DNA of 64,000 nucleotides from Accumulibacter sp. (lineage in GTDB: Bacteria; Pseudomonadota; Gammaproteobacteria; Burkholderiales; Rhodocyclaceae). The DNA lies in the NCBI GenBank assembly GCA_017302455.1, contig JAFLDO010000001.1:124001-188000 (forward strand), written 5' to 3'. The notes beneath the pieces were generated by a model. The model was not told the DNA's origin, did not search any database, and saw nothing but the letters and a program-made list of their open reading frames with translations. Positions 726 through 18,940 of this stretch are shown here, piece after piece. The position numbers were made by a program, and so were the translations under genes. The first letter of the stretch is position 1. Each line of letters opens with the position of its first letter.

Positions 726-1973
726 GTGTCGCGCGTTGTCGGAAGTACCGTCGTGGTCGTGTGGACAAGACTGGAGGCCCTGTGGCGTGTCGCGAGCAGG
801 GGGGCTCTTGCTATCGTCGGCGCCACGATCCTGCAGACCGCTGTGGGCCTCTCAGGCGTTGGCGAGGTATCTGCCGGCGACCGCGACGTGCCGCCGCTGA
901 CCACCTATCCAAGTCAGGTCTTCACGACGGAAAAGCCCGGGCAGCTGGGCCTGTATGTCGAAGGTGAGGACTGGCATCTGCTGGCCGACATGCCTGGATT
1001 TGAGCACCAAGAACTCCCGTTTTCAGGGCCGTCGCAGTTCTTCTTCATGGGGAACGACACTTCCGGAACAACGGCCACCGTTTTCGCGGAGCGGATAGAC
1101 GGTGCCAACAGTGAGGAGTCTTGTCGAAGGTATTACGCGCGAGGTGTCCAGGAGGGGCGCGATCGGACGGCGAGCTTTGTTGGTGACAAAGGCAAAGTGG
1201 GCGAGGTGGCCGAAGTCGAAGCGCGCGGAAAGACGCTTCTGATGTACGACTGGTCGATCTCCGAGTTCGGGCCCCAAAAGGTCCAGTTTTGGCGAAGGAC
1301 CATATACTGGTATCCCTACTACCGTGGTTTCTGCTTTGACTTCCATTTCAGCGTCTCCAGCACCGCAGCCCAGGAAGATGTGCTGAAGGTCTTCGACTCG
1401 GTCACGTACGGTCCACGCAGGCCTTCGGCAGACATCGATCGCCTGTTCTACTTTTTTGACCGATTGCGGATTCGCCTCAGTATCCCGATTGATTGGCGGT
1501 ACACGTATCGGCGGCCGCCACCAGGCCCTGCCGGCGGGATCGAGTTGCGCTCCGGTAAGGGGCAGGCCTTCTCGTTCCTGGTGTTCCCCTTGGGGAGGAC
1601 GCGCTCTGCCGCGCTGTCCGATCAGCCTGAAGGCGTGGCAGAGGCGGCGCGACGCTCTTACGAGGAGCGAGGCGCTACCGTGTCGTCGCTGCAGACTCAA
1701 TGCGCTGCGGGTACCTGCGTCTACTACTACGATCTCACCGTTCGCGCGGACGATAGCGCCTATGCCCACGATTTTCGCTACAACGCCGTTCAGTATCACC
1801 GTCAAGGATGGGCGAAGTTCGGCGAAATGGTAATGGGACTTTCGTTGTTGTACGGGGATAGCGGCAAGGACGCTGCAGACCACGTCACCGCGGCATTCAG
1901 TCGAGCGAAGGTCCTCGATCTGGGCGCAGCCCGTCGGCCCGCCGCGCAGGGTGACCGCCCACCGACGGAGTGA
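726..1973 (+). CDS. Secreted or membrane-anchored protein of unknown function, two similar halves
   Basis: A 415-residue protein starting with GTG at 726, set by an AGGAGG ribosome site 9 bases upstream. A hydrophobic stretch at about residues 27-45 looks like a long signal peptide or N-terminal anchor. The mature part appears to be two related modules. The first ends near VLKVFDSVTYG and the second near VTAAFSRAKVLD, each rich in aromatic beta-strand-like segments. I do not recognise a family; the build resembles periplasmic or extracytoplasmic folds with an internal duplication. No neighbour hints at function. Confidence 0.6.
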   Translation: MSRVVGSTVVVVWTRLEALWRVASRGALAIVGATILQTAVGLSGVGEVSAGDRDVPPLTTYPSQVFTTEKPGQLGLYVEGEDWHLLADMPGFEHQELPFSGPSQFFFMGNDTSGTTATVFAERIDGANSEESCRRYYARGVQEGRDRTASFVGDKGKVGEVAEVEARGKTLLMYDWSISEFGPQKVQFWRRTIYWYPYYRGFCFDFHFSVSSTAAQEDVLKVFDSVTYGPRRPSADIDRLFYFFDRLRIRLSIPIDWRYTYRRPPPGPAGGIELRSGKGQAFSFLVFPLGRTRSAALSDQPEGVAEAARRSYEERGATVSSLQTQCAAGTCVYYYDLTVRADDSAYAHDFRYNAVQYHRQGWAKFGEMVMGLSLLYGDSGKDAADHVTAAFSRAKVLDLGAARRPAAQGDRPPTE

Positions 1974-2434
1974 TTGCACGCGGGAGCGGACCGCTGAAGA
2001 CACTGTAGACGGTTCTCCTGGCTTTCTACGAGCGCGGTCCAGAAAGACTGCGCAGACATCCCCGGATTCCACAGGTGCTGTCTGTTTCGCCCGCACAGGG
2101 AGGCCCGTCTGGTTTTTCGCATTCGTCGTCAGATGGAGATCGCCCGTGATCGACTGCCAAGTGGGGCCACTCGACCTCGGCGCGCCTATGCGCGCCTATG
2201 CGCGCCAGCGCACCGGCTGCCTGGGCCGGTTTGCGCAGCCTCATCGCCAACGGTGCCGTGCCGGCTTCAGTCAGTCCTCCCGGGTTTGTGTCTGCAAGTC
2301 AGCCCGGTTCCGTCCGCGCAGTAGCGATGGCCCGATCCACCCACGCCGAAGATTGCTGCCGGAAGCTGATCAAATCCGGGGGATTGCCCGCCTTGACGTG
2401 GGTGGTTCCGGTAAGCCACGACGAAGACATCATC
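1974..2434. other. Intergenic region with a short tandem repeat
   Basis: About 460 bases upstream of the collagen-like gene. Reading frames here have no recognisable protein content. It contains two exact copies plus a partial third copy of a 10-base unit (CGCGCCTATG) at 2181-2206. No clear promoter was identified. Confidence 0.4.
2181..2206. repeat. 10-bp tandem repeat (2.6 copies)
   Basis: Unit CGCGCCTATG occurs twice in direct succession followed by CGCGCC. It lies in non-coding DNA upstream of the collagen-like gene and probably reflects slippage. Confidence 0.7.
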
Positions 2435-2800
2435 ATGAACTATCTGAACCATTCGAAGCTGATTGCCCCAACACTGACGACGCTCGCTTTAAGCGCCTGC
2501 TTCACACTGCCTGCGGGCCTGGCCGGGCCGCAGGGCGCGACTGGGTACACCGGGGCAACCGGCAATACCGGCGCGACCGGCGACACCGGAGGCGGTGGCG
2601 ACACCGGTGCCACCGGCAGTACCAGAGCAACGGGTGATACGGGGCCGCCGGCAGCGCCGGGGCACGGGGCAACTACAGACGGCGCGATCGACAGGAAGGA
2701 CGATGGCCAGAGAATCAGAGGGTTCCGCAGATCGCCGGCCCGGGGCTGGCGATTGATTCGACTGCGCTTGCCCAGGGTTGATTCCTGGAGTAGATCATGA
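2435..2800 (+). CDS. Short collagen-like (Gly-x-Thr) lipoprotein, probably decayed
   Basis: From ATG at 2435 the protein begins with a signal sequence ending in a lipobox-like LALSAC, then a run of collagen-type triplets (GPQGATGYTGATGNTGATG and on) to about residue 70. After roughly residue 75 the Gly-x-y pattern stops and the remaining 45 residues are Arg-rich and look out of frame, suggesting a frameshift or truncation of a longer collagen-like surface protein. The upstream in-frame extension to 2198 has no coding character. Collagen-like bacterial proteins form triple helices at the cell surface; whether this short form is made is uncertain. Confidence 0.5.
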   Translation: MNYLNHSKLIAPTLTTLALSACFTLPAGLAGPQGATGYTGATGNTGATGDTGGGGDTGATGSTRATGDTGPPAAPGHGATTDGAIDRKDDGQRIRGFRRSPARGWRLIRLRLPRVDSWSRS

Positions 2801-3170
2801 GCCATCCCCCACCAACGTTCGAGGCGCAGATGCTCCCACGGCCTTGTCGCCTTTCCCTTCGCAGTGGCCTGCTGGCCTTGGTCATCGCCTTGCCATGCGC
2901 TCCGCTGCTGGCCGGGACGGCGGGCGACGTAACGCGAGCCAACACCACCAGCGCCCCGCAAGAACAGCTTACCTGGATGAGCGGGGGCATCGGCGACCAG
3001 GCGCTCGAAGACATGCGCCAGCTTGCGGCAGCCTACAACGTTCGTGGCGAAGGCCAGTTGAGTCGTAGACAGCATCCGTCTTCACTCTGCTCGACAACGA
3101 CCAGCTGCTCGTTCGCGTAACGGCGCCGGCATCCGTGGCTGACCAAGGGACGCCGTGGCGCCTGCACGGC
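2797..3170 (+). pseudogene. Remnant of an exported protein, frameshifted
   Basis: ATG at 2797 opens a protein with a signal peptide (hydrophobic core LLALVIALPCAPLLA) followed by the sensible segment LTWMSGGIGDQALEDM and AAAYNVR. After about residue 82 the frame turns to nonsense and stops at 3120. Another frame of the same strand from about 3080 to 3165 reads VFTLLDNDQLLVRVTAPAS, which looks like the continuation of a beta-rich exported protein. I read this as one gene broken by one or more frameshifts. It overlaps the end of the collagen-like reading frame by 4 bases, so the two were probably an operon. Confidence 0.45.
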
Positions 3171-3331
3171 CGTCAGGGTTTGTGGTGGGCCGTTCTTCGT
3201 CGTTCCTGGGCGGATTCCACAGTAGAATCCTGGTGTTTCGCAAGGGCCATGGCCGGCTGGCCGCCGACCCCACACTTGACGCTGTACTCACGGAAGGACG
3301 CCGATCGATTTCGGCGAACCCATTCTCGACC

Positions 3332-5056
3332 ATGGTTCATTTTGACGTTCACTTGTGGCAGCGCTTTCGGGCGATGGCGGTACCCTACTGGTTCGGCGAG
3401 GAAAAATGGATCGCCAGAGGGCTGCTCGCCTTGCTGGTCATGTTGTTGCTGGGGCAGACCGGATTCGACGTCCTCTTCAATCAGTTGACCGGAGAATTCA
3501 CCTCTGCACTGGCGGCAAGAGATGCCGAGAGGTTCTGGAGCGCGATCAAGAAGTGCCTCGCCATCCTGGTTGTTGCCGTGCCGATCTATGCCTTCTACTA
3601 CTACGTACGTGACAAGCTCGGTCTCCACTGGCGGCGCTGGTTGACGCGGCGTCTTCTCGGTAGCTATTTCAGCAATCGGGCGTACTACCGACTGAACGCA
3701 AGTGCCGAGATCGACAACCCGGATCAGCGGATCGCCGAAGATATCAGAACCTTCACCGAGCAGTCCCTGCACTTTCTGTTGGTAACAGCGGGTGCATTGC
3801 TGCAGCTTGTCGCGTTCTGCGGCGTTCTCTGGTCCATTTCCCGGGAAATGGTCGGCTTTCTGGTCGTTTATGCGATTTTCGGCACGGCGGTAACGCTACT
3901 GGTGTTCGGCCAGGTGCTGATTGGCCTCAACTTCTATCAGCTCAAACGCGAAGCCGACTTCCGCTTCAGCCTGGTACGGATTCGCGAGAATGCCGAGGCC
4001 ATAGCCTTCTATCGCGGCGAGACACAGGAGTTGCGACAGGTCGGTCGGCATTTCGACGAGGTATTCAGGAACTTCGGCAGACTTATCAGGGCGCAATTGA
4101 ATCTGAACCTTTTCCAGTATGCTTACCGATTCGTCACCATCATCCTGCCCAGCGCGATCATTGCCGGGCGGGTGATTTCGGGGGAGCTCGAGGTTGGCCG
4201 GGCGATCCAGGCAACCGGCGCCTTTGCGGCGATCCTGACGGCGCTGACGGTGATTGTCGACAACTTCGAAGAGTTCAGCAAGTTTGCCGCCGGGATCGAT
4301 CGTCTGCATGGCTTCGCGGGCTTCGTCACCGGCAAGGAGACCGATCGGTCGGGCGCAGAGGATGGCATTGCCGTCGTCCAGGATTCGCGCTTGGCCATTG
4401 AAAGCCTTACCCTCGAAACCCCAAACCATGCGCGAACGCTGATCAAGGATCTTTCGCTGACGATCGATCCGGGCCAGGGCGTGTTGATCGTCGGCGCCAG
4501 CGGTTGCGGAAAGAGTTCATTGCTGCGCGCGATCGCCGGTCTGTGGCGCTCGGGCAGTGGCCGCATCATTCAGCCAGAGGCCAGCGAAATGCTGTTCCTG
4601 CCGCAAAGACCCTACATGCTGCTGGGTACCCTGCGCAGCCAGTTGCTGTATCCGCTACCGGAGCAGGCGATAGCTGACGCGGAACTGCTGCGCGTGCTGG
4701 AGAAGGTCAACCTCCCTGACCTTGCCGCCCGCTTCAATGGCCTGGATGCCGAACTGGATTGGGCCAAGGTATTGTCGGTCGGTGAACAGCAACGCGTCGC
4801 CTTGGCCCGAGTGCTGCTTTCCGCACCCCGTTACGCCATTCTCGACGAAGCGACCAGCGCCCTCGATATCACCAACGAAGACAGCGTCTATCGTCAGTTG
4901 GCGGCCAGCGAAACGACCATGATCAGCGTCGGCCATCGTCCCGCGATCCTTAAGTATCATCAGCACGTCCTGGAGCTGACAGGCGATGGCGGATGGCAGT
5001 TGTATGCGGCGAGCGATTACTGCTTTGACCGGGAAGCGCCCGCCAAGGCGACCTGA
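3332..5056 (+). CDS. ABC transporter, fused membrane and ATPase domains (BacA/SbmA-YddA / ABCD type)
   Basis: A 574-residue half transporter. The N-terminal ~330 residues carry several transmembrane helices of the SbmA/BacA-like ABC membrane family. The ATPase follows, with Walker A GASGCGKSS at about 388, signature LSVGEQQR at about 481 and Walker B YAILDEATSALD at about 500; LSVGEQQR in place of LSGGQ is usual in this family. Relatives (YddA, BacA/BclA, eukaryotic ABCD) move peptides, very long acyl chains or cobalamin. The substrate here is unknown. The start at 3332 is chosen because the upstream extension to 3155 has no membrane-protein character. Confidence 0.85.
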   Translation: MVHFDVHLWQRFRAMAVPYWFGEEKWIARGLLALLVMLLLGQTGFDVLFNQLTGEFTSALAARDAERFWSAIKKCLAILVVAVPIYAFYYYVRDKLGLHWRRWLTRRLLGSYFSNRAYYRLNASAEIDNPDQRIAEDIRTFTEQSLHFLLVTAGALLQLVAFCGVLWSISREMVGFLVVYAIFGTAVTLLVFGQVLIGLNFYQLKREADFRFSLVRIRENAEAIAFYRGETQELRQVGRHFDEVFRNFGRLIRAQLNLNLFQYAYRFVTIILPSAIIAGRVISGELEVGRAIQATGAFAAILTALTVIVDNFEEFSKFAAGIDRLHGFAGFVTGKETDRSGAEDGIAVVQDSRLAIESLTLETPNHARTLIKDLSLTIDPGQGVLIVGASGCGKSSLLRAIAGLWRSGSGRIIQPEASEMLFLPQRPYMLLGTLRSQLLYPLPEQAIADAELLRVLEKVNLPDLAARFNGLDAELDWAKVLSVGEQQRVALARVLLSAPRYAILDEATSALDITNEDSVYRQLAASETTMISVGHRPAILKYHQHVLELTGDGGWQLYAASDYCFDREAPAKAT

Positions 5057-5480
5057 CGCTTCCCGCGCGGATCGGCCGTTCCAGGTGTGTTCGGGGTAGG
5101 ACCCGAAGGAACAGCGACGGGCGCCACAGGCTGATCGGCGGCTGCCACCAGATTGCCGCCCTCGTCGGCTTGCTCGCGCATGGTCCTGAACTGGCGCGAG
5201 CACCCCGTCCGGATCGCGCGAAGATGCGGCGGACGCGACGGCGAGCTGTCGGTGGCGTACTCGAGCAACGGCACCTTGGCACAGCTCGATCCGCTTGCAC
5301 GACAGATTTCCGGAACCTGACCACTGCCCCCGGCTGGCGGCAAGAGTGCATGCGCGGTGCATAGTGGCCACCTCGGCGTCATCGACTGAAACCGGTCTGG
5401 TGGGCGAACGCATGCAGCACCGGCCACTTTGCCTCGGCCTTGCAACACGTTCAGCTGTGGCAGCGCGGCGGTCGACCCGC
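5057..5480. other. Intergenic region between convergent genes, no gene seen
   Basis: About 420 bases between the ABC transporter and the end of the LysR gene. Open frames on both strands are Arg/Pro/Ser-rich and resemble nothing. I see no clear terminator hairpin. It may be eroded coding sequence. Confidence 0.4.
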
Positions 5481-6401
5481 TCAATCAGGTCGCTCCCACG
5501 GCGGCACGGGGAGAAACAGCGCTTCCAGTTCGTCGAGAACGACGCGGACCTTCGCCAGGCGGACCCGGCTCGGGGTGTAGCAGGCGTAGACATGGCGCCC
5601 GAAGCTGCTCAGCGGCTCGTAGTCGTCAAGCACCGCGTGCAGTCTCCCGTCGGCCAGGTACGAACGGCAGAGATAGGTCGGCAGGATCGCCATTCCGTGA
5701 CCAGCGAGGAGCGCGTCCAGAATGCAGTCGACGTTGTTGATCCGAAACCTGCTGCTGACCGGGACGGCGGTTTCCTCTCCTTGGCGATCGAGCAGCCGCC
5801 ACCTCCCGTTGCCGTAGGGATGCGGGAAGTCGAAACACTGGTGACTGGACAGTTCAGCGGGTGTTGCCGGGCGACCGTGCGTGTCGAGGTAGGCGGGTGC
5901 GGCGCAGATCAGGCGCTTGACGAGGGTCAGGGGGCGCGCCACCGCATCTTCTGGCGGTGTTTTGGTCAGGCGCAAGGCAAGGTCGATCCGGTCATCGATC
6001 AGGTCGACCAGGTCGTCGCTCAACAGCAGTTCACACTCGAGCTGTGGATAACGTTCGGCCAGACGCGGCAGCAGCGGCGCAATATACAATCGTCCGAAAG
6101 TCAGCGAGGCGCTGATGCGCAGGACGCCGCATGGCACCTCGGTACTGATCCGGACCGCCAGATCGGCACCGTCGACGACTGCCAGCGCGCGCAGGGCGTG
6201 CTGGTAGAAGATTTCGCCCGCGGGTGTCAGGCGGAGCTTGCGCGTGGTCCTCTCGAAGAGCCGGACGCCAAAAGCTTTTTCGAGTTCGCCGACCTGCTTG
6301 CTGATCTGTGCCCGCGTACAGTCGAGACGGCGCGCCGCAGCAGCCATGCTGCCGATTTCGACAACCCGGACAAAGCTTGTCCAGCTGCTCAACCAAGCCA
6401 T
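5481..6401 (-). CDS. LysR-family transcriptional regulator
   Basis: A 306-residue LTTR of normal length. The N-terminal winged helix-turn-helix covers about residues 1-60 (SMAAAARRLDCTRAQISKQV, then FGVRLFERTTRKLRLTPAG). The rest is the periplasmic-binding-protein-like effector domain. It is divergent from the MFS transporter at 6525 with 123 bases between, the classic arrangement in which an LTTR controls its neighbour and itself. A GTCAA-N7-TTGAC dyad lies just upstream of its start codon. The effector ligand cannot be read from sequence. Confidence 0.92.
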   Translation of the reverse strand: MAWLSSWTSFVRVVEIGSMAAAARRLDCTRAQISKQVGELEKAFGVRLFERTTRKLRLTPAGEIFYQHALRALAVVDGADLAVRISTEVPCGVLRISASLTFGRLYIAPLLPRLAERYPQLECELLLSDDLVDLIDDRIDLALRLTKTPPEDAVARPLTLVKRLICAAPAYLDTHGRPATPAELSSHQCFDFPHPYGNGRWRLLDRQGEETAVPVSSRFRINNVDCILDALLAGHGMAILPTYLCRSYLADGRLHAVLDDYEPLSSFGRHVYACYTPSRVRLAKVRVVLDELEALFLPVPPWERPD

Positions 6402-6403
6402 TT

Positions 6404-6420
6404 GTCAATCATTCGTTGAC
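6404..6420. promoter_or_regulatory. Candidate LysR operator (GTCAA-N7-TTGAC)
   Basis: A perfect 5-base inverted repeat with 7-base spacer, ending 3 bases before the LysR start codon in the LysR/MFS divergent region. Position and symmetry fit an autoregulatory LTTR site; the match is short, so this is tentative. Confidence 0.4.
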
Positions 6421-6524
6421 GTCAAAGCCCGATTCTACTGCTATTCGTCGTCCCGGCTTCGACCTATAGTTCGCCCGAATCAGAGCCAATTCCGGCCTGG
6501 TCAATTCCTCTACAGGCACCTCCC

Positions 6525-7745
6525 ATGCTGCGTTCGCTCAACCGCCCCGGCGTCATGGCCATCACCCTGGCTGCGGCCGGCATCCTGATGGTGACGATGG
6601 GAACGCGCCAGTCCTTCGGCCTGCTCATCGCGCCGATCAACGACACCAGCGGACTGGGGATTGCCACCATCAGCCTGGCTCTCGCCATTGGCCAGTTCGC
6701 CTGGGGTGCGGTTCAGCCGGTGGCCGGCGCGCTGGCTGACCGCTTCGGGCCGCGCACCGTACTCACCGGCGGCATCATCACACTGGCGGCGGGTTGCGCG
6801 ATCACCCCATATGCCACTTCCGGATTTGGCCTGGTGGTGTCGCTCGGCCTCCTGGCGGCGATCGGTGCAGGTGCCGGGAGTTTTTCCGTGCTGATCGGCG
6901 CCGCCGCGCAGCGCCTGCCACTGGAAGCGCGCGGCGCGGCGTCGGGAGTGATCAATGCCGGCGGTTCCTTTGGGCAGTTCGTCTTTGCGCCGATTCTCCA
7001 GAAGGCGATCCAGGCGCTCGGCTGGATGGGCGCGATGTGGGTTCTGGCGGCGATGACCCTGGCGGCGCTGCCACTGGTGCGGCGGGTCGCCAGCCCGTTA
7101 GCGGTGACGCCAGCCCCTGCTGGCGAGCAGGCGGACAAGGGGTTGCCGGCGGCCTTGCGCGAGGCGTTCGGCGACCGCAGCTACCTGTTGCTGCATGCCG
7201 GCTTCTTCACCTGCGGCTTTCACATCGCGTTCCTGGTCACCCACCTGCCGGGCGAGGTCAATCTGTGCGGACTACCTCCCGAGGTCGCCAGTTGGTCGCT
7301 GGCGATCATCGGACTGGCCAACATCCTCGGCAGTCTCTACGCGGGTGCCTGCATCTCCCGCTATCGCAGCAAGTACGTGCTGGCGCTCATGTATGGCTCG
7401 CGCGCCCTGCTCGTAGCCGTCTATCTGATGGCGCCGCGTACGGCGCTGACTTTCTATGTCTTCGCCGCTGGCCTCGGTTTCACCTGGCTGGCGACCGTCC
7501 CACCGACGGCAGCCATCGTCGGCAAGTTGTTCGGGGTTCGCTACCTGGCCACGCTGTTCGGCATGACCCTGCTGTCGCACCAGATCGGTGGCTTCCTCGG
7601 CGCCTGGCTGGGCGGGCTGGTCATCGTCCGTTTCGGCGACTTCGGCTGGATGTGGTACGCCGACATGGCGCTGGCCGTCGCCGCCGCGCTGGTCAACCTG
7701 CCGATCCGCGAAGCACCCGTGACCAGGGCCCTTGCACCAGCCTGA
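6525..7745 (+). CDS. MFS transporter
   Basis: A 406-residue protein with about 12 hydrophobic helices. It has the MFS loop 2-3 signature form (ALADRFGPRTVLTGG) and a Gly/Ala-rich second half. It resembles the oxalate/formate or monocarboxylate-like antiporter branch rather than drug exporters, but the substrate is not determined. It is divergent from the LysR gene, which probably regulates it, and is followed 46 bases later by the hotdog thioesterase gene on the same strand. That spacing suggests co-transcription and perhaps an acid or acyl-type substrate. Confidence 0.85.
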   Translation: MLRSLNRPGVMAITLAAAGILMVTMGTRQSFGLLIAPINDTSGLGIATISLALAIGQFAWGAVQPVAGALADRFGPRTVLTGGIITLAAGCAITPYATSGFGLVVSLGLLAAIGAGAGSFSVLIGAAAQRLPLEARGAASGVINAGGSFGQFVFAPILQKAIQALGWMGAMWVLAAMTLAALPLVRRVASPLAVTPAPAGEQADKGLPAALREAFGDRSYLLLHAGFFTCGFHIAFLVTHLPGEVNLCGLPPEVASWSLAIIGLANILGSLYAGACISRYRSKYVLALMYGSRALLVAVYLMAPRTALTFYVFAAGLGFTWLATVPPTAAIVGKLFGVRYLATLFGMTLLSHQIGGFLGAWLGGLVIVRFGDFGWMWYADMALAVAAALVNLPIREAPVTRALAPA

Positions 7746-7791
7746 CAGGGGCTTCGAGAAGCGTCTTCTTTCCAACTCGGGATCGCCGACC

Positions 7792-8232
7792 ATGAGCAAA
7801 CTGCGCAACGAGATCACCATCGAACGTCTCAACCAGCAAGGCATCGAGTACCTGCCCGGCTACCTCGGCATCGTCATCCTGTCGCTGGAACCGAACACGC
7901 TCAGCAGCCGGATGCCGATCCACAAGCTGCACGTGGCCCCCAACGAATTCCTGCACGCGGCCAGCGTCGTTGCGCTTGCCGATACGAGCTGCGGATACGC
8001 AACCATCGCGCACCTGCCGGAAGGCGCACAGTCCTTCACGACGATCGAACTGAAAAGCAACCATCTCGGCACCGTCAGGGAGGGTAGCGTCGCTTGCACG
8101 GCGACCGCCCAACATCTCGGACGCAACACGCAGGTCTGGGATGCGGTGGTGACCGACGAGGCGAGCGGACGCAAGCTGGCCCTGTTTCGCTGCACGCAGA
8201 TGATCCTCTGGCCCAAGGCCGAACACCGATAG
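7792..8232 (+). CDS. PaaI-type hotdog-fold thioesterase
   Basis: 146 residues, the usual single-domain length. The hotdog core reads NEFLHAASVVALADTSCGYA, matching the PaaI/YbgC pattern in which a helix carrying LAD packs against the acyl-CoA site, followed by strands IELKSNHLGTVREG. The family hydrolyses acyl- or aryl-CoA thioesters in the cytoplasm. The ATG at 7792 is preferred over the upstream frame start because the family alignment begins there. Probably co-transcribed with the MFS gene. Confidence 0.85.
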   Translation: MSKLRNEITIERLNQQGIEYLPGYLGIVILSLEPNTLSSRMPIHKLHVAPNEFLHAASVVALADTSCGYATIAHLPEGAQSFTTIELKSNHLGTVREGSVACTATAQHLGRNTQVWDAVVTDEASGRKLALFRCTQMILWPKAEHR

Positions 8233-8440
8233 CCCCAGCGACCCCGCTAAGCTGCCGGCACCTGCCGGCACCTGGCGGCGGGCCGACTCACCTCGATATG
8301 ATGCTTCGTCGGGTGAGCAACAGCGCACCGGCTGTTGCATCGAATCTGTTCCGCTTGCGTCAGCAGCGTCGAGCCCGCTCAGTAGAGCGCGTGGTAGATG
8401 CCCGGGGAATAGTTGTCGGTAGGGCCATCCGCCGTCGCAT

Positions 8441-9625
8441 TCAAAGCCGACAGGCGAGGATGTCCGTAAGCTCCGCGTCGGTGAGGACAATCGGGTTGGT
8501 CTTCATGCTGCCTCCCCGGCTGGCCGCGACGATGCGCGGCAGATCGCTCTCGCCGATGCCGTACGCGGCGAGCCGCGGCAGCGCGAGTTCCACTTCCCAG
8601 CGGCGCAGGCTGTCGACGAGGAAGGCGCGCGCCTCAGAGCCGCTCAGGCCCTTCTGCATCGCGAAGCGGCGCCCGATCTCGCCGTATTTCGGCAGCGCCG
8701 GATGGTCGGGTGCGCGTGCTTCAAGCGCCGCGATGTTGCTTGCCGTGGCTGCCGCTACCAGGGTGCCGCAGACGACGCCATGCGGAATCGGGAAGAAGGC
8801 GCCGAGTGGCGAGGCGAGACCATGCACCGCACCGAGCCCGGTCTGTGCCAGGCAGATACCCGACACCAGCGAGGCATAGGCCATCGGCGCGCGCGCCGCG
8901 GCCGACTGCTGGCGATGCAGCGCCGGCAGGGCGTCGCGCGCGGCCATGATCCCGGAGCGGGCGAGGGCGTCGGTCAGTGGGTTGGCGCGCGTGGACACGA
9001 AGGACTCGAGGATCTGCGTAAAGGCGTCCAGGCCGTCGGCGGCGATCAGCGCCGGCGGGCAGGTGGCGAGCAGATCCGGATCGACGATCGCCCATTCGGC
9101 GACCAACCGGTCATCGCGGAAGGATTTCTTGAAGCCGCCGGGAGCCGTCAGCACCGCGTTCTTCGTCGCCTCCGAACCGGTCCCGGCGGTGGTCGGCACG
9201 GCGATGAACGGCGTTGACGGTCCGCGATAGGGCAGTTCCGGACCGACGCCCTCGAGGTGGTCCATCACCGAGTTGCCGGGCCGCAGCAGGCCGGCGATGG
9301 CCTTCGCCGCATCGAGCGCGCTGCCGCCGCCGATGCCGACTACCGCGTCGAACGGCGTTCCGCGCAGCGCGGCGACCGTCGCATCGACGAACTCCGGCGA
9401 CGGCTCACCCGACACCCTGACCTGCTCCCACGCCAGGCCGCGCTGGCGAAGCTGCGCGAACAAGCGCGTTCCCGCTTCCGACTCGGCGAACGAGCGCAGG
9501 CCGGTGACGATGAGGAGATGGTTGCCGTAGCCGGCAGCGATCTCCGGCAGTTTTTCCAGCGCGCCGCTGCCGAATTCGATGCGCGGCAGGCGGGCGATCG
9601 AGAAGGGAAAGAAATTGCCGCTCAT
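8441..9625 (-). CDS. Iron-containing (group III) alcohol dehydrogenase family protein
   Basis: 394 residues from ATG at 9625, which overlaps the stop of the upstream monooxygenase gene by 4 bases (ATGA), showing translational coupling. Nucleotide-binding GIGGGSALDAAKAIA and the TTAGTGSEAT loop are present. The first metal region reads DGLDAFTQILESFVS, with Gln where many members have His, a variant common in one subgroup. The second region HGLASPLGAFFPIPHG has both histidines. Family members reduce aldehydes or oxidise alcohols or maleylacetate with NAD(P)H. The specific substrate is unknown. Confidence 0.88.
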   Translation of the reverse strand: MSGNFFPFSIARLPRIEFGSGALEKLPEIAAGYGNHLLIVTGLRSFAESEAGTRLFAQLRQRGLAWEQVRVSGEPSPEFVDATVAALRGTPFDAVVGIGGGSALDAAKAIAGLLRPGNSVMDHLEGVGPELPYRGPSTPFIAVPTTAGTGSEATKNAVLTAPGGFKKSFRDDRLVAEWAIVDPDLLATCPPALIAADGLDAFTQILESFVSTRANPLTDALARSGIMAARDALPALHRQQSAAARAPMAYASLVSGICLAQTGLGAVHGLASPLGAFFPIPHGVVCGTLVAAATASNIAALEARAPDHPALPKYGEIGRRFAMQKGLSGSEARAFLVDSLRRWEVELALPRLAAYGIGESDLPRIVAASRGGSMKTNPIVLTDAELTDILACRL

Positions 9626-9915
9626 GCGGGAAATAGTCCATTCATCGGCTCGCCGCGGCGTGGCTCGGCCATCATGTCGGCGACCGCCGTACGCCAGGCG
9701 AGATAGTGCGCGGTCTCCTTGTGCGCGGCGGCGTCGGCGGCCGACGCGTAGGCCTCGTAGAGGATCAAGCGCGTCGGGTCGTCGGGCGCCTGCAGGACAT
9801 CGAAGCGACGGTTGCCCGCTTCGCTGACCGAGGCCTCGTGGTTCGCGCGCGTTGCCGCGATGAAGGCGTCGAGATGCTCCGGCCGGACCCGGACATGGAC
9901 GAGCGTGACATGCAT
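9622..9915 (-). CDS. Antibiotic biosynthesis monooxygenase (ABM) / YgiN-like protein
   Basis: 97 residues, the normal size for the dimeric ferredoxin-like ABM fold. The opening strand VTLVHVRVRPEHLDAFI and later LILYEAYASAADAAAHKETAHYLAW (split here by a family-typical loop) are diagnostic. Members act as cofactor-free quinol monooxygenases or small dimer scaffolds. It is coupled to the alcohol dehydrogenase downstream by a 4-base overlap, so the two likely act on the same compound. Confidence 0.85.
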   Translation of the reverse strand: MHVTLVHVRVRPEHLDAFIAATRANHEASVSEAGNRRFDVLQAPDDPTRLILYEAYASAADAAAHKETAHYLAWRTAVADMMAEPRRGEPMNGLFPA

Positions 9916-14172: not shown

Positions 14173-15771
14173 TCACCTTGCTAACTCGGCCCCATCCTCA
14201 GCATGCTTTTCCAACTCACGATCCACTATGACCGACAGATCGTCACAGGCAATCCGGCATCTATCCAGTTCTTTCGCAGGTACTTCAGAAAAGTGAGCCC
14301 GGTCGTTCCGAACGGGAGTAATAGCGCTCACCTTGTCTTCGAGCTCACGCTTGTCACGAAACATGTGCTTGAAATGTGACCAACCCTGTCCATGGATCAT
14401 TAGGTCTTTGAGGTGCCCAAAATACATACATGACATCGTGTCACGTTCAACTGCCTCCGGCGAATACTTGTATTTCCTCTTCGATCCTGCCTTTTTACTC
14501 TGGATTTCTGTCCATGCCTTATCGCCCAGAACGGTACGCATTACACTCTCTGCTTTCCCACCGTACGCGGCTTCGTATCTATTCTTAATTAGATCCCGCA
14601 TTGAGAGCTCAGTCGTCTCGATAAGTCTCCATACGTCGTGTGCGGCAGAGGGAACTGCAGCGTCGACATTCAGCCGCTCATAGTAATTCCAAAAGAATTT
14701 GTTCCGACGAATTAACCTTCCATTCAACACGTCCGCTATACCCATATACTGAAACTCCTCCACCACCCTCGGCGCAAGAAGCGGCTCTAGTCTTGCATCG
14801 CGAAGAATGGGAGCAATCGCAACCAAGGACATCTCCTCATTCTCGCAAAAGTCCTGTGCTACGGCCCGGGCACGAGGGGTGAGAGCTAGTGACCAATTTT
14901 CTAGTAATCCTCGATTGTCATGTAATACTGTTGATTCCGCGAGCAGCAAAACTTCTGCCGTAACTTGAGGCGGCGATATACGGGCCAGTTCTTCCAGCAT
15001 CTTTGCGGCTAAGCCGGCTTGCCCACCTGAACTTTCCCAGATAAAGCGAGCCAGCTCAACTAGCTCCGTATCTGCTCTTTCTGGGAATACCTGCTTGGCG
15101 AGGGCCTGAATAGCAGTCTCGGGAAGATTCCTTATGTGCCATGGGATAGCTCTGCTTCCAATCGGCGACGTATCGTCTAGAGAAAACGCATATAGATGCT
15201 GAGCGCCGGCGAAAACCATCGCAACAGTGAAGTTCTGTACACCGGATTCGCCAAAAAGCAAAGAAAATAGATTGTCCTGAAATCCTCGCGGAAATCGATC
15301 ACCGAGGACGCGTTTTGCCTCATCAAGAAGGAAAACAAACCTTGGCTCAATTTCCCCACACTCCGCGCTTACGTTTTGCAAATCACCTATGAAGTCATCT
15401 AACAAATCTCCGGTACGATGGGCGCCCGCGTTTGGAGTATTCTCACAAGGGAAACCAGCAATTTGCTTTGCGCAGGATGTTCGGGCGGCACGTACCAATG
15501 TTTGGAATAGGTCCGCAGGCCTCGCATCATAATTTAGACGGGTAAGATCAACGTAAACCGGCACTTCGAGTGCCCCCAAGGTTGCAACTTCGCCTGTTAC
15601 GCGAAGCAATCTGTCTCTTAAGCGAAGCAGGAGAGCTGTTTTCCCAGATTGACGTCCGCCGAATAACAACACCGCATTCGTCTTCCGTGTTGCGCCAAGG
15701 AGCCCATCACACATCTCATCCCGTCCGACAAAGAACCCCGAACCAGGGCTTATTCTCAGGCTAGCGGACAT
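14173..15771 (-). CDS. STAND-type P-loop ATPase with C-terminal Swt1-like HEPN domain
   Basis: 532 residues from ATG 15771, which has GGGAGG 7 bases upstream and overlaps the preceding gene by 11 bases. The GTG at 15786 is less likely. N-terminal GRDEM precedes Walker A GGRQSGKTA (38-46); Walker B is FVFLLDEAKR (145-154); a winged-helix-like region follows at about 290-365. Residues ~380-520 match the Swt1-like HEPN family: opening helix LIETTELSMRDLIKNRYEAAYG, closing with VRNDRAHF, an exact R-x4-H (R488, H493) RNase motif. HEPN domains with this motif cut RNA and act as toxins in many conflict systems. By inference the ATPase controls the HEPN RNase. Base composition is AT-richer than the chromosome around it. 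Confidence 0.8.
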   Translation of the reverse strand: MSASLRISPGSGFFVGRDEMCDGLLGATRKTNAVLLFGGRQSGKTALLLRLRDRLLRVTGEVATLGALEVPVYVDLTRLNYDARPADLFQTLVRAARTSCAKQIAGFPCENTPNAGAHRTGDLLDDFIGDLQNVSAECGEIEPRFVFLLDEAKRVLGDRFPRGFQDNLFSLLFGESGVQNFTVAMVFAGAQHLYAFSLDDTSPIGSRAIPWHIRNLPETAIQALAKQVFPERADTELVELARFIWESSGGQAGLAAKMLEELARISPPQVTAEVLLLAESTVLHDNRGLLENWSLALTPRARAVAQDFCENEEMSLVAIAPILRDARLEPLLAPRVVEEFQYMGIADVLNGRLIRRNKFFWNYYERLNVDAAVPSAAHDVWRLIETTELSMRDLIKNRYEAAYGGKAESVMRTVLGDKAWTEIQSKKAGSKRKYKYSPEAVERDTMSCMYFGHLKDLMIHGQGWSHFKHMFRDKRELEDKVSAITPVRNDRAHFSEVPAKELDRCRIACDDLSVIVDRELEKHAEDGAELAR

Positions 15772-18337
15772 TCCCAATCCTCCCACTTTGCAGCCAACGT
15801 TGCATTAACCCCATAGTCAACGACGCCTTATTGTCTGAAATTTCAACAATTTGATAACCAATAAGGTGCCTTAAGCTCAAAGTTTTCGGCAACTTTCGAG
15901 TGAGCTGGTGCAGCCCTATATCTTTCCCTCTCGAAATTTCTAGACAAACGTCGAGTTCATCCGGATAGTCACGAGAGAACCTTTCCACAATTTCGCTAAA
16001 ATCTCTTCCAGCGATTTCCAGGTACGCGTCGACCCAGTCGTCAATTTTCGTCACAGTCATTGTGAGCGGCCGTTCGGGATATCGAGCGCACAAATAGCTG
16101 CAGAACTGGCGGATGAAGAAGGGATGCCCACCAGTCAGACTGTGTATTCGAAGGGCCACTTCTGTCGAAAACCGGATTCCCATTCCCTTACCCAGCGTCT
16201 GAACCATCTGAATTGATTCACCGCTTTTCAGTAGAGGAAGATATATTTCTCGGAAGAAGTTGAAAACCGGATTGTCTTTTCCGGAAAACTGTGCTGCTTC
16301 TGCAATGGCTGCATTGGCGCCAGTCACGATAGGAACAAAATCTGAGGACTCCTGTGCGACGCCACGAATGTAACTGACAAAGTCGAAGAATCCTTTAAAC
16401 CCTTCTTTCCCCGCAGTATTTGGCAATAGTCGCTCGATCTCATCTAACATTACGATAACTTTTGGCCGAGGGCTGAGTGGAGATCGCCGGATTACATCAA
16501 GTGTTCGGCTTAGGTCGGAGTCGAACGCGGTAGCGACAGGATATTTGTCTGGGATATCAAGGTAATCATTGTATTCATTCCCTAATCGCCATCGAATACC
16601 GCGAAACTCTGGACGAATTGTCGTTCTTTTCACTAACTCACGCCCCAGCTTCCAATACAACCATCTCGTGTCTGTTATGTCAGCGGGAATTCGGAGAAGA
16701 TCAATGTAAATTGCGATATCTCCCCCCTCGTTAGCTCGCCTCTCTATCTCCTTCAGGAGTGAGGTTTTCCCGACTTTACGCAAACCAAAGATGCCGGCAG
16801 CGGTTCCATTCGCAATGGCATCCCGAATCTCCGCGAGCGATCGTTCACGACCAAAGAAGCGTCGACCAGATACTGGGAAGTTTTGAGCAAAAAGATCGCG
16901 TCGGTATAGCCAGCGATCCAGCACTTCGCGTAGCAGATCATCGGCTTTTCCCGCTGTCTCGATCTGCGATTGTGTAATCGGCACAATCGCTGGAACCGTT
17001 CGCTTCCGGTCTTCCAGTCGCTGAAACATCAGGCGCTCGACCCCTTCAGGTAGCGATGCGACGAGAAGCAGCACCACCTGCTCGTCCACTACGCCACCCG
17101 TCCCCCATTCGTGCACGACCTTGTCAATGTCACTAATATCCGCCCTAGCGATACCCGATTTAAATAGACACCGAAGGAGAATATTCCCGGCTACGCCGTA
17201 GCCCTCGAGTAAGTCGGCGTTCTTTGGCTCGACTATAAAGTCCGCCCCGACCGTTTTCTGTTCGAATAGGGCCGCTCTAACCGGCTTAAATCCCGCCTTA
17301 TTAAGAAAATCGTACGCCAGACCACCCCGATAGTGCTGGAGGCGAATGCTCACAATATCCATGACAAGGAGGTCATCACGGGGGAAGGCAGCTTTTCCGT
17401 GCCGGCTTGATGCGAACGCCTCTTTAGCCTGGTTGTAGTATTTCCACGCCTCTTCTAAGTCTGCGCGGCCATTGTCTCTCCTCGCATGTATTCTTGCTAT
17501 TGCCAGGAGAAAGATGCGGTCGCCTCTTTGCGCCGTTTTCTGACTTAATGCTAGGCCGCGGCTCAGCAAGTCCAGTGCCTTCTTAAACTCCCCCATCGAG
17601 GCGGCCAGGAGCCCTGCGTCCTCGAACAGCTTTATGTTGTTCGGAAAGACCAGCAAACCTTGTTCGTAGACTCGTATTGCATCCGCCCGACGGTTTCTGT
17701 TCTTTTCCATCGATGCATAGCTGGTAATCAGCTGTACCGACGGGGATTGTGCAAGTCCTTTTTCGTACAGTTTAGCAGCCTCGTCCAAGCGCTTGTTGTA
17801 TCGAGCAAGGATGGCCTGTTCCAAGTAGTTTTCCTTTTGCGGTACTGTCTTTGGAATCTCTTGATAGGCGGTGCTCTGAATAGGTGTATCGAGAGGCGTT
17901 ACTCGGAATGCTTGCATTCCGCGATCCGTCCCCTGCTTATTGAAGCTAACAGCAGTTCCAACTGGTGGCGGTTGGTCCGGATCGGCCAGCTGGGCAAAAT
18001 GAAAAAAGATTCGATCGTCGTTATCGTCCGCGATGAAACCGAAACCGCGATCGGATTGGAGTGAGCTTATAGCCCCGTGGAAAATTTCGTCGCTATCTGG
18101 ATCCAACAACTCAAAATGAACGTCGGCTGCCAACAAACCTCGGGGAACAACTTCCAACTTAAAGATAACGCGATCCCCCCGGGACAATGGCAAACCCGGG
18201 ATTCGCAATGATCGGCGATGAACAAGAAAGCGCTCTTCCTCGCTGCCTGGCTCATCGGGTTTTATATAGCCGTAACCCATCCGGTCATCATATTGATCAA
18301 CCGAGCCGCTTAGGTATTCATTCTTCACGTAATCCAT
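15761..18337 (-). CDS. Cold-shock-domain / TPR / STAND-type ATPase fusion protein
   Basis: 858 residues. Two cold-shock-like OB domains lie at ~8-76 (MGYGYIKP, RFLVHRRSL, GDRVIF) and ~84-147 (DRGFGFIADD, IFFHFAQL). TPR-like helices follow at ~165-310, then an unassigned region (~320-485). The ATPase starts at FFGRERSL (494) with Walker A GLRKVGKTS (518-526), Walker B VIVMLDEIE (627-635), a sensor-like GANAAI (673) and GGHPFFIRQFCSYLC (736-750), a common STAND feature. The C-terminus looks like a winged helix. Cold-shock domains bind single-stranded RNA/DNA, so this protein could be the sensor of a pair with the overlapping STAND-HEPN gene. Horizontal origin is suggested by AT-rich codon choice. 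Confidence 0.8.
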   Translation of the reverse strand: MDYVKNEYLSGSVDQYDDRMGYGYIKPDEPGSEEERFLVHRRSLRIPGLPLSRGDRVIFKLEVVPRGLLAADVHFELLDPDSDEIFHGAISSLQSDRGFGFIADDNDDRIFFHFAQLADPDQPPPVGTAVSFNKQGTDRGMQAFRVTPLDTPIQSTAYQEIPKTVPQKENYLEQAILARYNKRLDEAAKLYEKGLAQSPSVQLITSYASMEKNRNRRADAIRVYEQGLLVFPNNIKLFEDAGLLAASMGEFKKALDLLSRGLALSQKTAQRGDRIFLLAIARIHARRDNGRADLEEAWKYYNQAKEAFASSRHGKAAFPRDDLLVMDIVSIRLQHYRGGLAYDFLNKAGFKPVRAALFEQKTVGADFIVEPKNADLLEGYGVAGNILLRCLFKSGIARADISDIDKVVHEWGTGGVVDEQVVLLLVASLPEGVERLMFQRLEDRKRTVPAIVPITQSQIETAGKADDLLREVLDRWLYRRDLFAQNFPVSGRRFFGRERSLAEIRDAIANGTAAGIFGLRKVGKTSLLKEIERRANEGGDIAIYIDLLRIPADITDTRWLYWKLGRELVKRTTIRPEFRGIRWRLGNEYNDYLDIPDKYPVATAFDSDLSRTLDVIRRSPLSPRPKVIVMLDEIERLLPNTAGKEGFKGFFDFVSYIRGVAQESSDFVPIVTGANAAIAEAAQFSGKDNPVFNFFREIYLPLLKSGESIQMVQTLGKGMGIRFSTEVALRIHSLTGGHPFFIRQFCSYLCARYPERPLTMTVTKIDDWVDAYLEIAGRDFSEIVERFSRDYPDELDVCLEISRGKDIGLHQLTRKLPKTLSLRHLIGYQIVEISDNKASLTMGLMQRWLQSGRIGNVR

Positions 18338-18588: not shown

Positions 18589-18632
18589 GTGGCCGGTGGC
18601 CGACCGACGCCATGCTACACCCACTGACTGCT
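18589..18632. repeat. 44-bp direct repeat, copy 1
   Basis: Matches the segment at 18745-18788 at about 39 of 44 positions, sharing the core GACGCCATxCTACACCCACT. The copies are 156 bases apart. Likely a degenerate member of an interspersed non-coding repeat. Confidence 0.7.
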
Positions 18633-18744
18633 TTCTGGAGCGTAAGGGCAGGCGACGAAATCAACATCCCCAGCCGACTGACCGGTTTCGGTTGATCGTT
18701 CGAGACCGACGTCGGCTTTGGAGAAGAATCTCCACCGTCTGCTC

Positions 18745-18788
18745 GTGGCCGGTTGCCGAGCGACGCCATCCTACACCCACTGGCCGCT
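18745..18788. repeat. 44-bp direct repeat, copy 2
   Basis: Second copy of the repeat at 18589-18632, with about five substitutions. It ends in GGCCGCTTA, whose complement TAAGCGGCC also occurs near 13740 in the left flank of the island. Confidence 0.7.
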
Positions 18789-18940
18789 TACCGCTCATCG
18801 CTCCACCAAGTCAACGTCAGTCTTGGGCACACTTCTTCACTGGTCTCGTTCTGGCTGATTCCCACCCGCCGTCTGCAGGCCGAGCGAGTAGGGCATGGGA
18901 CGCGAGCCGTCTCTCCCCGCACTGCTCGCGAAGCACCGCC

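Follow-up and report, generated by a model that had tools for sequence, protein, structure and literature searches.

The stretch of DNA analysed here (the window) comprises 64,000 nt from Accumulibacter sp. (Rhodocyclaceae; assembly GCA_017302455.1, contig JAFLDO010000001.1, positions 124,001-188,000 of the forward strand) and carries on its minus strand two genes, A and B, that encode a pair of STAND-type ATPases, the first preceded by cold-shock-like domains and tetratricopeptide repeats (TPRs) and the second followed by a Swt1-like HEPN domain (Table 1). The two open reading frames (ORFs) lie and overlap as the original prediction, made from the sequence of the window, had it. The ATG start of B is supported by a GGGAGG 7 nt upstream, and A may instead begin at GTG 18328, three codons on and better spaced, because a GGAG abuts its ATG (18328-18337). 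Both genes lie on an island with a G+C content of 45-56% (14.0-18.5 kb) against 54-72% on both sides, in 300-base steps. The island had been called AT-rich; at about 50% G+C it is low for the genome rather than AT-rich, but its foreign look stands and it was probably acquired horizontally.

Table 1. Features of genes A and B and of the repeat beside them (positions in the window).
Feature	Position	Strand	Basis
Gene A, 858 aa, CSD-CSD-TPR-middle domain-STAND ATPase	15761..18337	-	ORF, Pfam, AlphaFold2 model, constraint
Cold-shock-like domain 1 of A, residues 6-81	18095..18322	-	phrog_729 (PHROG cold-shock family), E 7.5e-9
Cold-shock domain 2 of A, residues 86-148, RGFGFI / RIFFHF	17894..18082	-	Pfam CSD, best stretch
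TPR repeats of A, residues 169-310	17408..17833	-	TPR_14 and model
Middle alpha/beta domain of A, residues 336-480	16898..17332	-	Alignments, AlphaFold2 model
STAND-type ATPase of A, residues 485-858	15764..16885	-	Pfam, alignment, Walker motifs, Foldseek
Walker A of A, GLRKVGKT, residues 518-525	16763..16786	-	Motif and alignment
Overlap, end of A and start of B, 11 nt	15761..15771	-	ORF coordinates
Gene B, 532 aa, STAND ATPase-HEPN	14173..15771	-	ORF, Pfam, PADLOC, model
STAND-type ATPase of B, residues 1-370	14662..15771	-	Pfam, Walker motifs, profile match, Foldseek
Swt1-like HEPN domain of B, residues 374-526	14194..14652	-	Pfam, PADLOC, profile comparison, model helices
E388-x3-R392 of the HEPN domain	14596..14610	-	Nearly invariant in alignment A14
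Rx4H motif, R488-N-D-R-A-H493	14293..14310	-	Motif scan and alignment
Dispersed repeat beside the island	18589..18789	none	Two 45-nt copies, spacing 156 nt

The two cold-shock domains and the TPR-like repeats that had been claimed for A were both recovered. Pfam CSD (PF00313) matched the protein in two stretches with 49.9 bits (cut-off 27), alongside the phrog_729 match, and TPR_14 reached 28.5 bits over the whole protein (cut-off 23.5). An AlphaFold2 model of A, built from a 15-row alignment with a mean predicted local distance difference test (pLDDT) score of 80.6, has strands at both cold-shock domains (five in domain 2, in blocks of pLDDT 73-83; lower confidence in domain 1), helices over the TPR region, mostly at pLDDT 83-94, and then an alpha/beta middle domain and the ATPase. 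The middle domain aligns with the domain that opens the single-chain relatives described below. Six middle-domain pieces tested against Pfam gave nothing above cut-off, a single weak match being seen, to HaeII, in L077 (E 0.0025); the strand order is compatible with an inactive restriction-endonuclease-like or a Rossmann-like fold. In the ATPase, Walker A at residue 518 and Walker B (IVMLDE) at 628 are both intact, and F517, G518, L519, R520 and G523-S526 are invariant across 15 aligned rows. The best Foldseek match of the model was the archaeal ATPase 2qen (TM 0.70 by target). Sequence searches of solved structures led from A to cold-shock and TPR chains and from the A profile to 2fna, and a viral structure library queried with the model of A returned AAA-type ATPases and clamp loaders, which were uninformative.

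Protein B likewise has an intact Walker A (GGRQSGKT at 38) and Walker B (VFLLDE at 146), and its STAND region matched that of A in a profile comparison (prob 97.2), so that a STAND-type ATPase in each protein, as first proposed, is borne out by the motifs although the Pfam matches fall short of their cut-offs. Foldseek with the model of B returned 2qen, 2fna and ORC/Cdc6 proteins at E<=0.001 and Apaf-1, CED-4 and plant resistosomes at higher E-values; the sequence of B found none among solved structures. Some relatives passed ATPase cut-offs, among them L066 B (AAA_22, 30.7 bits, cut-off 27) and L026 A (nSTAND6, 28.7 bits, cut-off 27.7).

The Swt1-like HEPN with an R-x4-H motif that had been proposed at the end of B is upheld by a PADLOC candidate model and by profile comparison, with Pfam HEPN_Swt1 (PF18731) remaining below its cut-off. 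The 192-position model PDC-M34B matched the C-terminus of B with 26.7 bits (E 9e-7); the other PDC-M34 models gave no match to the window pair at E<=1. When the C-termini of B and L066 B were compared as a profile with those of 12 single-chain relatives, the match was 94.7% (E 6e-8) with R..AH in register. HEPN domains have been described as carrying Ex3[KR] and Rx4-6H, the latter at a helix end (PMC3710099). In B, R488-x4-H493 lies at the end of helix 474-489, with the next long helix at 499-531 in a medium-confidence model; E388-x3-R392 supplies the upstream feature, and alignment A14 shows hardly any variation at E388, R392, W464 and R488. The Rx4H motif alone proves nothing, because R-x4-6-H recurs at B 207, B 518 and A 803. 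The models do not reject either the HEPN or the cold-shock assignment, that of B being of medium confidence only. The A14 profile also drew two G-protein constructs from the solved structures, which were dismissed as chance. In the relatives, HEPN is assigned because of PDC-M34B (L007, 35.6 bits; L002, 16.1 bits), the profile alignment and the motif; PDC-M34B had no match in L006 or L003 at E<=0.01.

It had been suggested that co-occurrence of homologues be checked, and the pair was found adjacent at four loci besides the window. The closest is L004, in a metagenome-assembled genome of Propionivibrio, where A' is 79% identical to A and B' 72% identical to B over the STAND part. In L066, a Klebsiella-type prophage contig close to Klebsiella phages, identities are 43% (A) and 35% (B). 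The viral contig L073 is more distant, at 28% (A) and 18% (B), and the tubulin/TIR locus L026 (genome G174) is the most remote. The genes overlap by 11 nt in the window and L004 and by 4 nt in L066 and L026; those of L073 overlap by 8 nt if B starts at GTG 2854, or leave a 1-nt gap if it starts at ATG 2863. Against the Propionivibrio copy, the ratio of non-synonymous to synonymous substitution (dN/dS) is about 0.07 for A (0.128/1.97) and about 0.11 for B (0.176/1.65, 488 codons), dS being near saturation in both; A and B are under purifying selection. The notion that the island is decayed or inert, and B no longer a working RNase, draws on the Propionivibrio copy, which is without the HEPN end, and on the sub-cut-off Pfam score of the window HEPN. 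We regard it as very improbable: the frames are open, the P-loops and HEPN residues are intact, and the low dN/dS extends over the STAND and HEPN parts of B up to residue 486.

Across these loci the sensor and effector domains are swapped on related STAND cores. A HEPN domain stands on the B side in the window, L066 and L004 (cut short in the last), a predicted pPIWI-associating nuclease (pP_pnuc_1, 43.5 bits, cut-off 26.3) in L073, and a TIR domain in L026 (TIR_2, 64.6 bits, cut-off 28; PADLOC ThsB, 1e-58). On the A side, the sensor position of L026 is taken by a Tubulin_2 domain (217 bits). The L026 genes are part of a row of three consecutive genes (1388-9851 in G174) encoding a TPR-S sensor protein (PF20308), a Tubulin_2-middle-STAND protein of 1381 aa and a STAND-TIR protein of 512 aa; this row looks like a further counter-invader locus.

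Single-chain relatives occur as well. An A-profile scan of viral contigs gave 14 loci, two of them the pairs L066 and L073 and 12 single chains of one protein each (666-770 aa); with seven others, on plasmids (L002, L003) and in genomes (L006, L007, L061-L063), 19 single-chain relatives with a middle domain, a STAND ATPase and a HEPN-like end were collected, L002 and L075 being near copies. By reading, R-x3-H or R-x4-H is present near the end of all 12 viral chains, with x4 in five, and matches to the B STAND at single-chain loci are confined to the one STAND gene. One chain, L078 (770 aa), begins with a cold-shock domain (CSD 33.9 bits, cut-off 27) and continues as middle-STAND-HEPN-like. This layout, and the alternation of pair and single chain in one prophage slot, suggests that the two proteins together perform the function of a single chain.

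That slot is shared by L066 and L068, whose common flanks (3109, 1138 and 2582 bp at 97.0, 92.5 and 97.8% identity) enclose the pair in L066 and a single chain in L068, while Klebsiella phage Kp4865-4 has the same flanks around other genes, a third content. The cargo of this Klebsiella-type slot spans 5149-11037 in L066, 5244-10666 in L068 and about 5169-8565 in L082; that of L066 also includes a gene of 428 aa (phrog_30399) whose identity to E. coli chromosomal DNA is about 92% in the 20 matches listed. L073 adjoins a phage-type integrase (36.5 bits, cut-off 27.1). Searches of plasmid records with A gave 20 records, 16 of them from Klebsiella; in every case the match took in under half of A and stayed beneath 60% identity. 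Two records were examined, and the Klebsiella plasmid among them, conjugative by MOB-suite, bears the single-chain form. One explanation for these associations is that the pair serves the mobile element first, as a prophage- or island-maintenance device acting by superinfection exclusion or addiction. The prophage-like contigs of L066 and L068, the integrase beside L073 and the conjugative plasmid are in line with such a role. No phage or integrase gene is found among nine neighbours in the window, however, and to our knowledge two large STAND proteins would be an unusual toxin-antitoxin layout; we consider this explanation unlikely.

The pair is rare. With B as query, none of 149 other genomes of the family, three of the same genus included, had a match at E<=1e-6, and 200 genomes of the order gave its own genome plus a weak hit in G431 that spans just 74 residues (E 6e-4). 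With A, 96 of 369 class genomes matched at E<=0.001, by coordinates mostly over short, lone cold-shock or TPR stretches. An A profile found six of 398 phylum genomes at E<=1e-10, comprising its own, the single chains of G807, G891 and G845, and the weaker G804 and G610. A B profile found six at E<=1e-5 among 350 class genomes, recorded as G174 (the two-gene TIR locus), G089 (within a single-chain gene), G167 (within a TPR-STAND frame), G177 (2), G032 and G284. Plasmid records gave no match with B or with the L066 B or L008 B STAND, phage records none with the A STAND, the B STAND or the L068 single chain, and viral contigs returned only L078 itself for L078 and nothing for the L026 B STAND; the whole TIR-bearing L008 B as query was swamped by TIR domains.

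The left flank of the island is present in one of three same-genus genomes (G1045, 65-67%), and the right flank as short pieces only, in two of the three. The repeat beside the island has four related stretches (119-209 nt, 72-78%) on three other contigs of its own genome and two in one same-genus genome. One promoter-like site was seen, fewer than the 3.8 of shuffled sequence, whereas the 8 terminator-like sites were close to the number in shuffles (mean 5.6, sd 2.2); an Rfam search gave zero matches. The nine neighbouring genes tested with Pfam encode a beta-propeller, DUF2272, a beta-lactamase fold, an M15 peptidase, MAPEG, DUF2126, DUF1194/PEP-CTERM, TetR and an acyl-CoA dehydrogenase. That these are ordinary cell genes, and that cold-shock domains and TPRs are frequent in housekeeping regulators, would fit a device for stress or RNA regulation, in cold or translation stress for example, with no role against phage. 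Such a role is nevertheless improbable in our view, given the patchy presence (0/149 other family genomes), the low-G+C island, the prophage slot with exchangeable contents, and the replacement of HEPN by TIR and pP_pnuc.

The closest described kind is nSTAND2, a mobile operon of two genes whose products each contain a STAND NTPase; it was predicted in 2021 to be a counter-invader system, as the available part of that account describes it; one of its STAND domains is inactive, with eroded NTP motifs, and fused to GT4 or HEPN, and an arginine finger is conserved in both proteins (PMC8195603). The window pair resembles it in its adjacent STAND genes with a HEPN effector on one. One possibility is thus that the pair is a true, merely diverged, member of the nSTAND2 two-gene systems (Kaur et al. 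2021). L066 A does touch the nSTAND2 profile PF20702 (17.9 bits, E 0.002, cut-off 24), whereas neither window protein matched it at E<=1, and the effector-bearing B retains intact ATP motifs, unlike the eroded partner described for nSTAND2 (PMC8195603). The cold-shock/TPR sensor also sets the window pair apart, and the TIR and pP_pnuc effectors and single chains seen here are absent from the available part of the nSTAND2 account (PMC8195603).

A STAND tree of 32 rows was built with every single chain except L002, L070 and L071 (16 of 19) and with six nSTAND2-type rows, namely the gene-1 products of L088 and L089, which pass the PF20702 cut-off, a gene-1 paralogue of L087 that sits beside a gene 1 passing that cut-off, and the partner genes of L087, L088 and L090. 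The nSTAND2-type rows form a separate group (94/91), the five B rows group at 93/88 (not starred), the A rows join the single chains at 100/98, and the single chains group at 100/99; B_L073, A_L026 and L078 were flagged for long branches and B_window for odd letter make-up. In the approximately unbiased (AU) test, B with nSTAND2-type gene 1 and A plus single chains with the partner gene were left unrejected (p 0.12 and 0.126), which is compatible with nSTAND2 membership. A clade of A rows alone, outside which L026 falls, gave p 0.355. A clade of A and B together, apart from the single chains and nSTAND2-type rows, was named only after the first tree and was rejected (p 0.002). By eye, no HEPN or GT4 was recognized in the compared nSTAND2-type loci, and in L087, L088 and L089 gene 2 has long hydrophobic stretches ahead of the STAND domain. 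Because PF20702 does not match and the ATP motifs of the effector partner are intact, the pair is kept apart from nSTAND2; membership seems doubtful to us, and the pair is filed here as a variant of the paired-STAND kind, outside nSTAND2 itself.

Other systems share parts of this design. A 2013 survey includes fusions of Swt1-like HEPN domains with STAND-ATPase, TPR and S1 (Npun_F6454 among them) and mentions HEPN-STAND proteins with cold-shock-like OB folds (PMC3710099); in the part of the survey available, the ingredients in common with the window are HEPN, STAND, TPR and OB fold, but they sit in one protein, against two proteins and two STAND domains here. CoCoNuTs, with predicted RNA targeting, resemble the pair in having cold-shock-like OB folds on an NTPase and using HEPN nucleases, but they are built, as far as the available text of 2024 goes, on a McrB-type GTPase and a McrC-type partner instead of STAND (PMC11090510); neither McrB-type GTPase nor McrC (DUF2357) is among the Pfam matches of A and B at E<=1. 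TIR-NLR/AVAST STAND defence proteins, as portrayed in the available part of their description, likewise combine a STAND switch, sensor repeats and a swappable effector; in TIR-NLR a single protein starts with the effector and ends with the TPRs, an order reversed here and split over two genes (PMC9122126). Window A scored 16.0 bits against Pfam nSTAND6 (PF25201), below the cut-off of 27.7 that L026 A passes. PADLOC 2.0.0 matched the pair only to CSD_V, PDC candidates and the MADS mad8 P-loop (17.6 bits, residues 497-549), with no named system, and all NCBIfam 20 matches of A and B lay below cut-off. Neither nSTAND6 by name nor a CSD-TPR-STAND plus STAND-HEPN pair was found in the one literature collection searched. 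The claim of an undescribed system therefore holds in that no named match was obtained from PADLOC or NCBIfam, but not in full, as the available parts of the earlier accounts predicted the kind in 2021 (PMC8195603) and listed related fusions in 2013 (PMC3710099).

Taken as a whole, we think it somewhat probable that A and B form a modular STAND switch made of two proteins, an intracellular counter-invader (anti-phage) device in which A senses and B kills by means of its HEPN RNase. The sense-and-abort logic of the original prediction is thereby kept as the best reading, but defence, RNA sensing and RNase activity are parts of it that we infer. Cold-shock domains bind nucleic acids. RNA is put forward as the ligand because this binding is known and because of the parallel offered by CoCoNuTs in the available text (PMC11090510). 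We propose that protein A acts as the sensor, its cold-shock OB domains binding single-stranded nucleic acid, most likely RNA, while its TPR and middle domains would hold the STAND ATPase off. With the cue bound, A would exchange its nucleotide and oligomerize, and the oligomer may recruit B through STAND-STAND contacts; the HEPN domains of B, so brought together, would switch on RNA cleavage and stop both the cell and the invader. Co-assembly, like RNase activity, RNA as the ligand and phage as the trigger, is what we infer.

A number of observations weigh against this proposal. All Pfam ATPase matches of A and B lie below curated cut-offs, and so does HEPN_Swt1 on B (18.3 bits, E 0.003, cut-off 27.5). 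The AlphaFold2 model of B is of medium confidence (13 rows, mean pLDDT 72.1, predicted TM-score 0.43), and its ten best Foldseek matches have low TM values by query (0.19-0.26). In the relatives, HEPN_Swt1 was unreported for L066 B, L068, L078 and L079 at E<=0.1 and for L006, L007, L002 and L003 at E<=0.05, PDC-M34B did not match L066 B, L068, L078 or L079 at E<=0.001, and R-x3-H stands in place of the canonical Rx4-6H in seven of the 12 single chains from viral contigs. The Propionivibrio B runs at about 10036 of L004 into unrelated DNA that starts just before the Rx4H motif, so that its HEPN end was either lost or misassembled. On the sensor side, L066 A combines its TPRs with one cold-shock domain that scores 21.1 bits, below the CSD cut-off of 27, L073 A contains TPRs but was not matched by Pfam CSD at E<=0.1, and a search of L026 at E<=0.05 showed no CSD and no HEPN. 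Finally, no integrase, phage or known defence gene was found by Pfam among the nine neighbouring genes tested.

More tentatively, we suggest that the two-gene and single-chain loci represent a distinct family of modular paired-STAND immune relays apart from nSTAND2, with a swappable sensor in gene 1 and a swappable killer in gene 2, or with sensor, switch and killer in one chain. If so, cold-shock/TPR proteins would sense foreign RNA and tubulin-like ones phage cytoskeleton or assembly, the killers would be HEPN, TIR and pPIWI-associated nuclease, and the pairing would permit recombination between sensors and effectors. Innate immunity in plants, animals and bacteria shares a core of STAND proteins, in which a single chain usually carries both sensor and effector. 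Split STAND partners that are swappable at both ends and have a single-chain alternative may thus provide a model for how a sensor STAND licenses an executor STAND. The cold-shock form would be a direct receptor for foreign RNA that licenses a HEPN RNase and, if its cold-shock domains do sense phage RNA, it would represent a protein-only RNA receptor within a STAND defence system.

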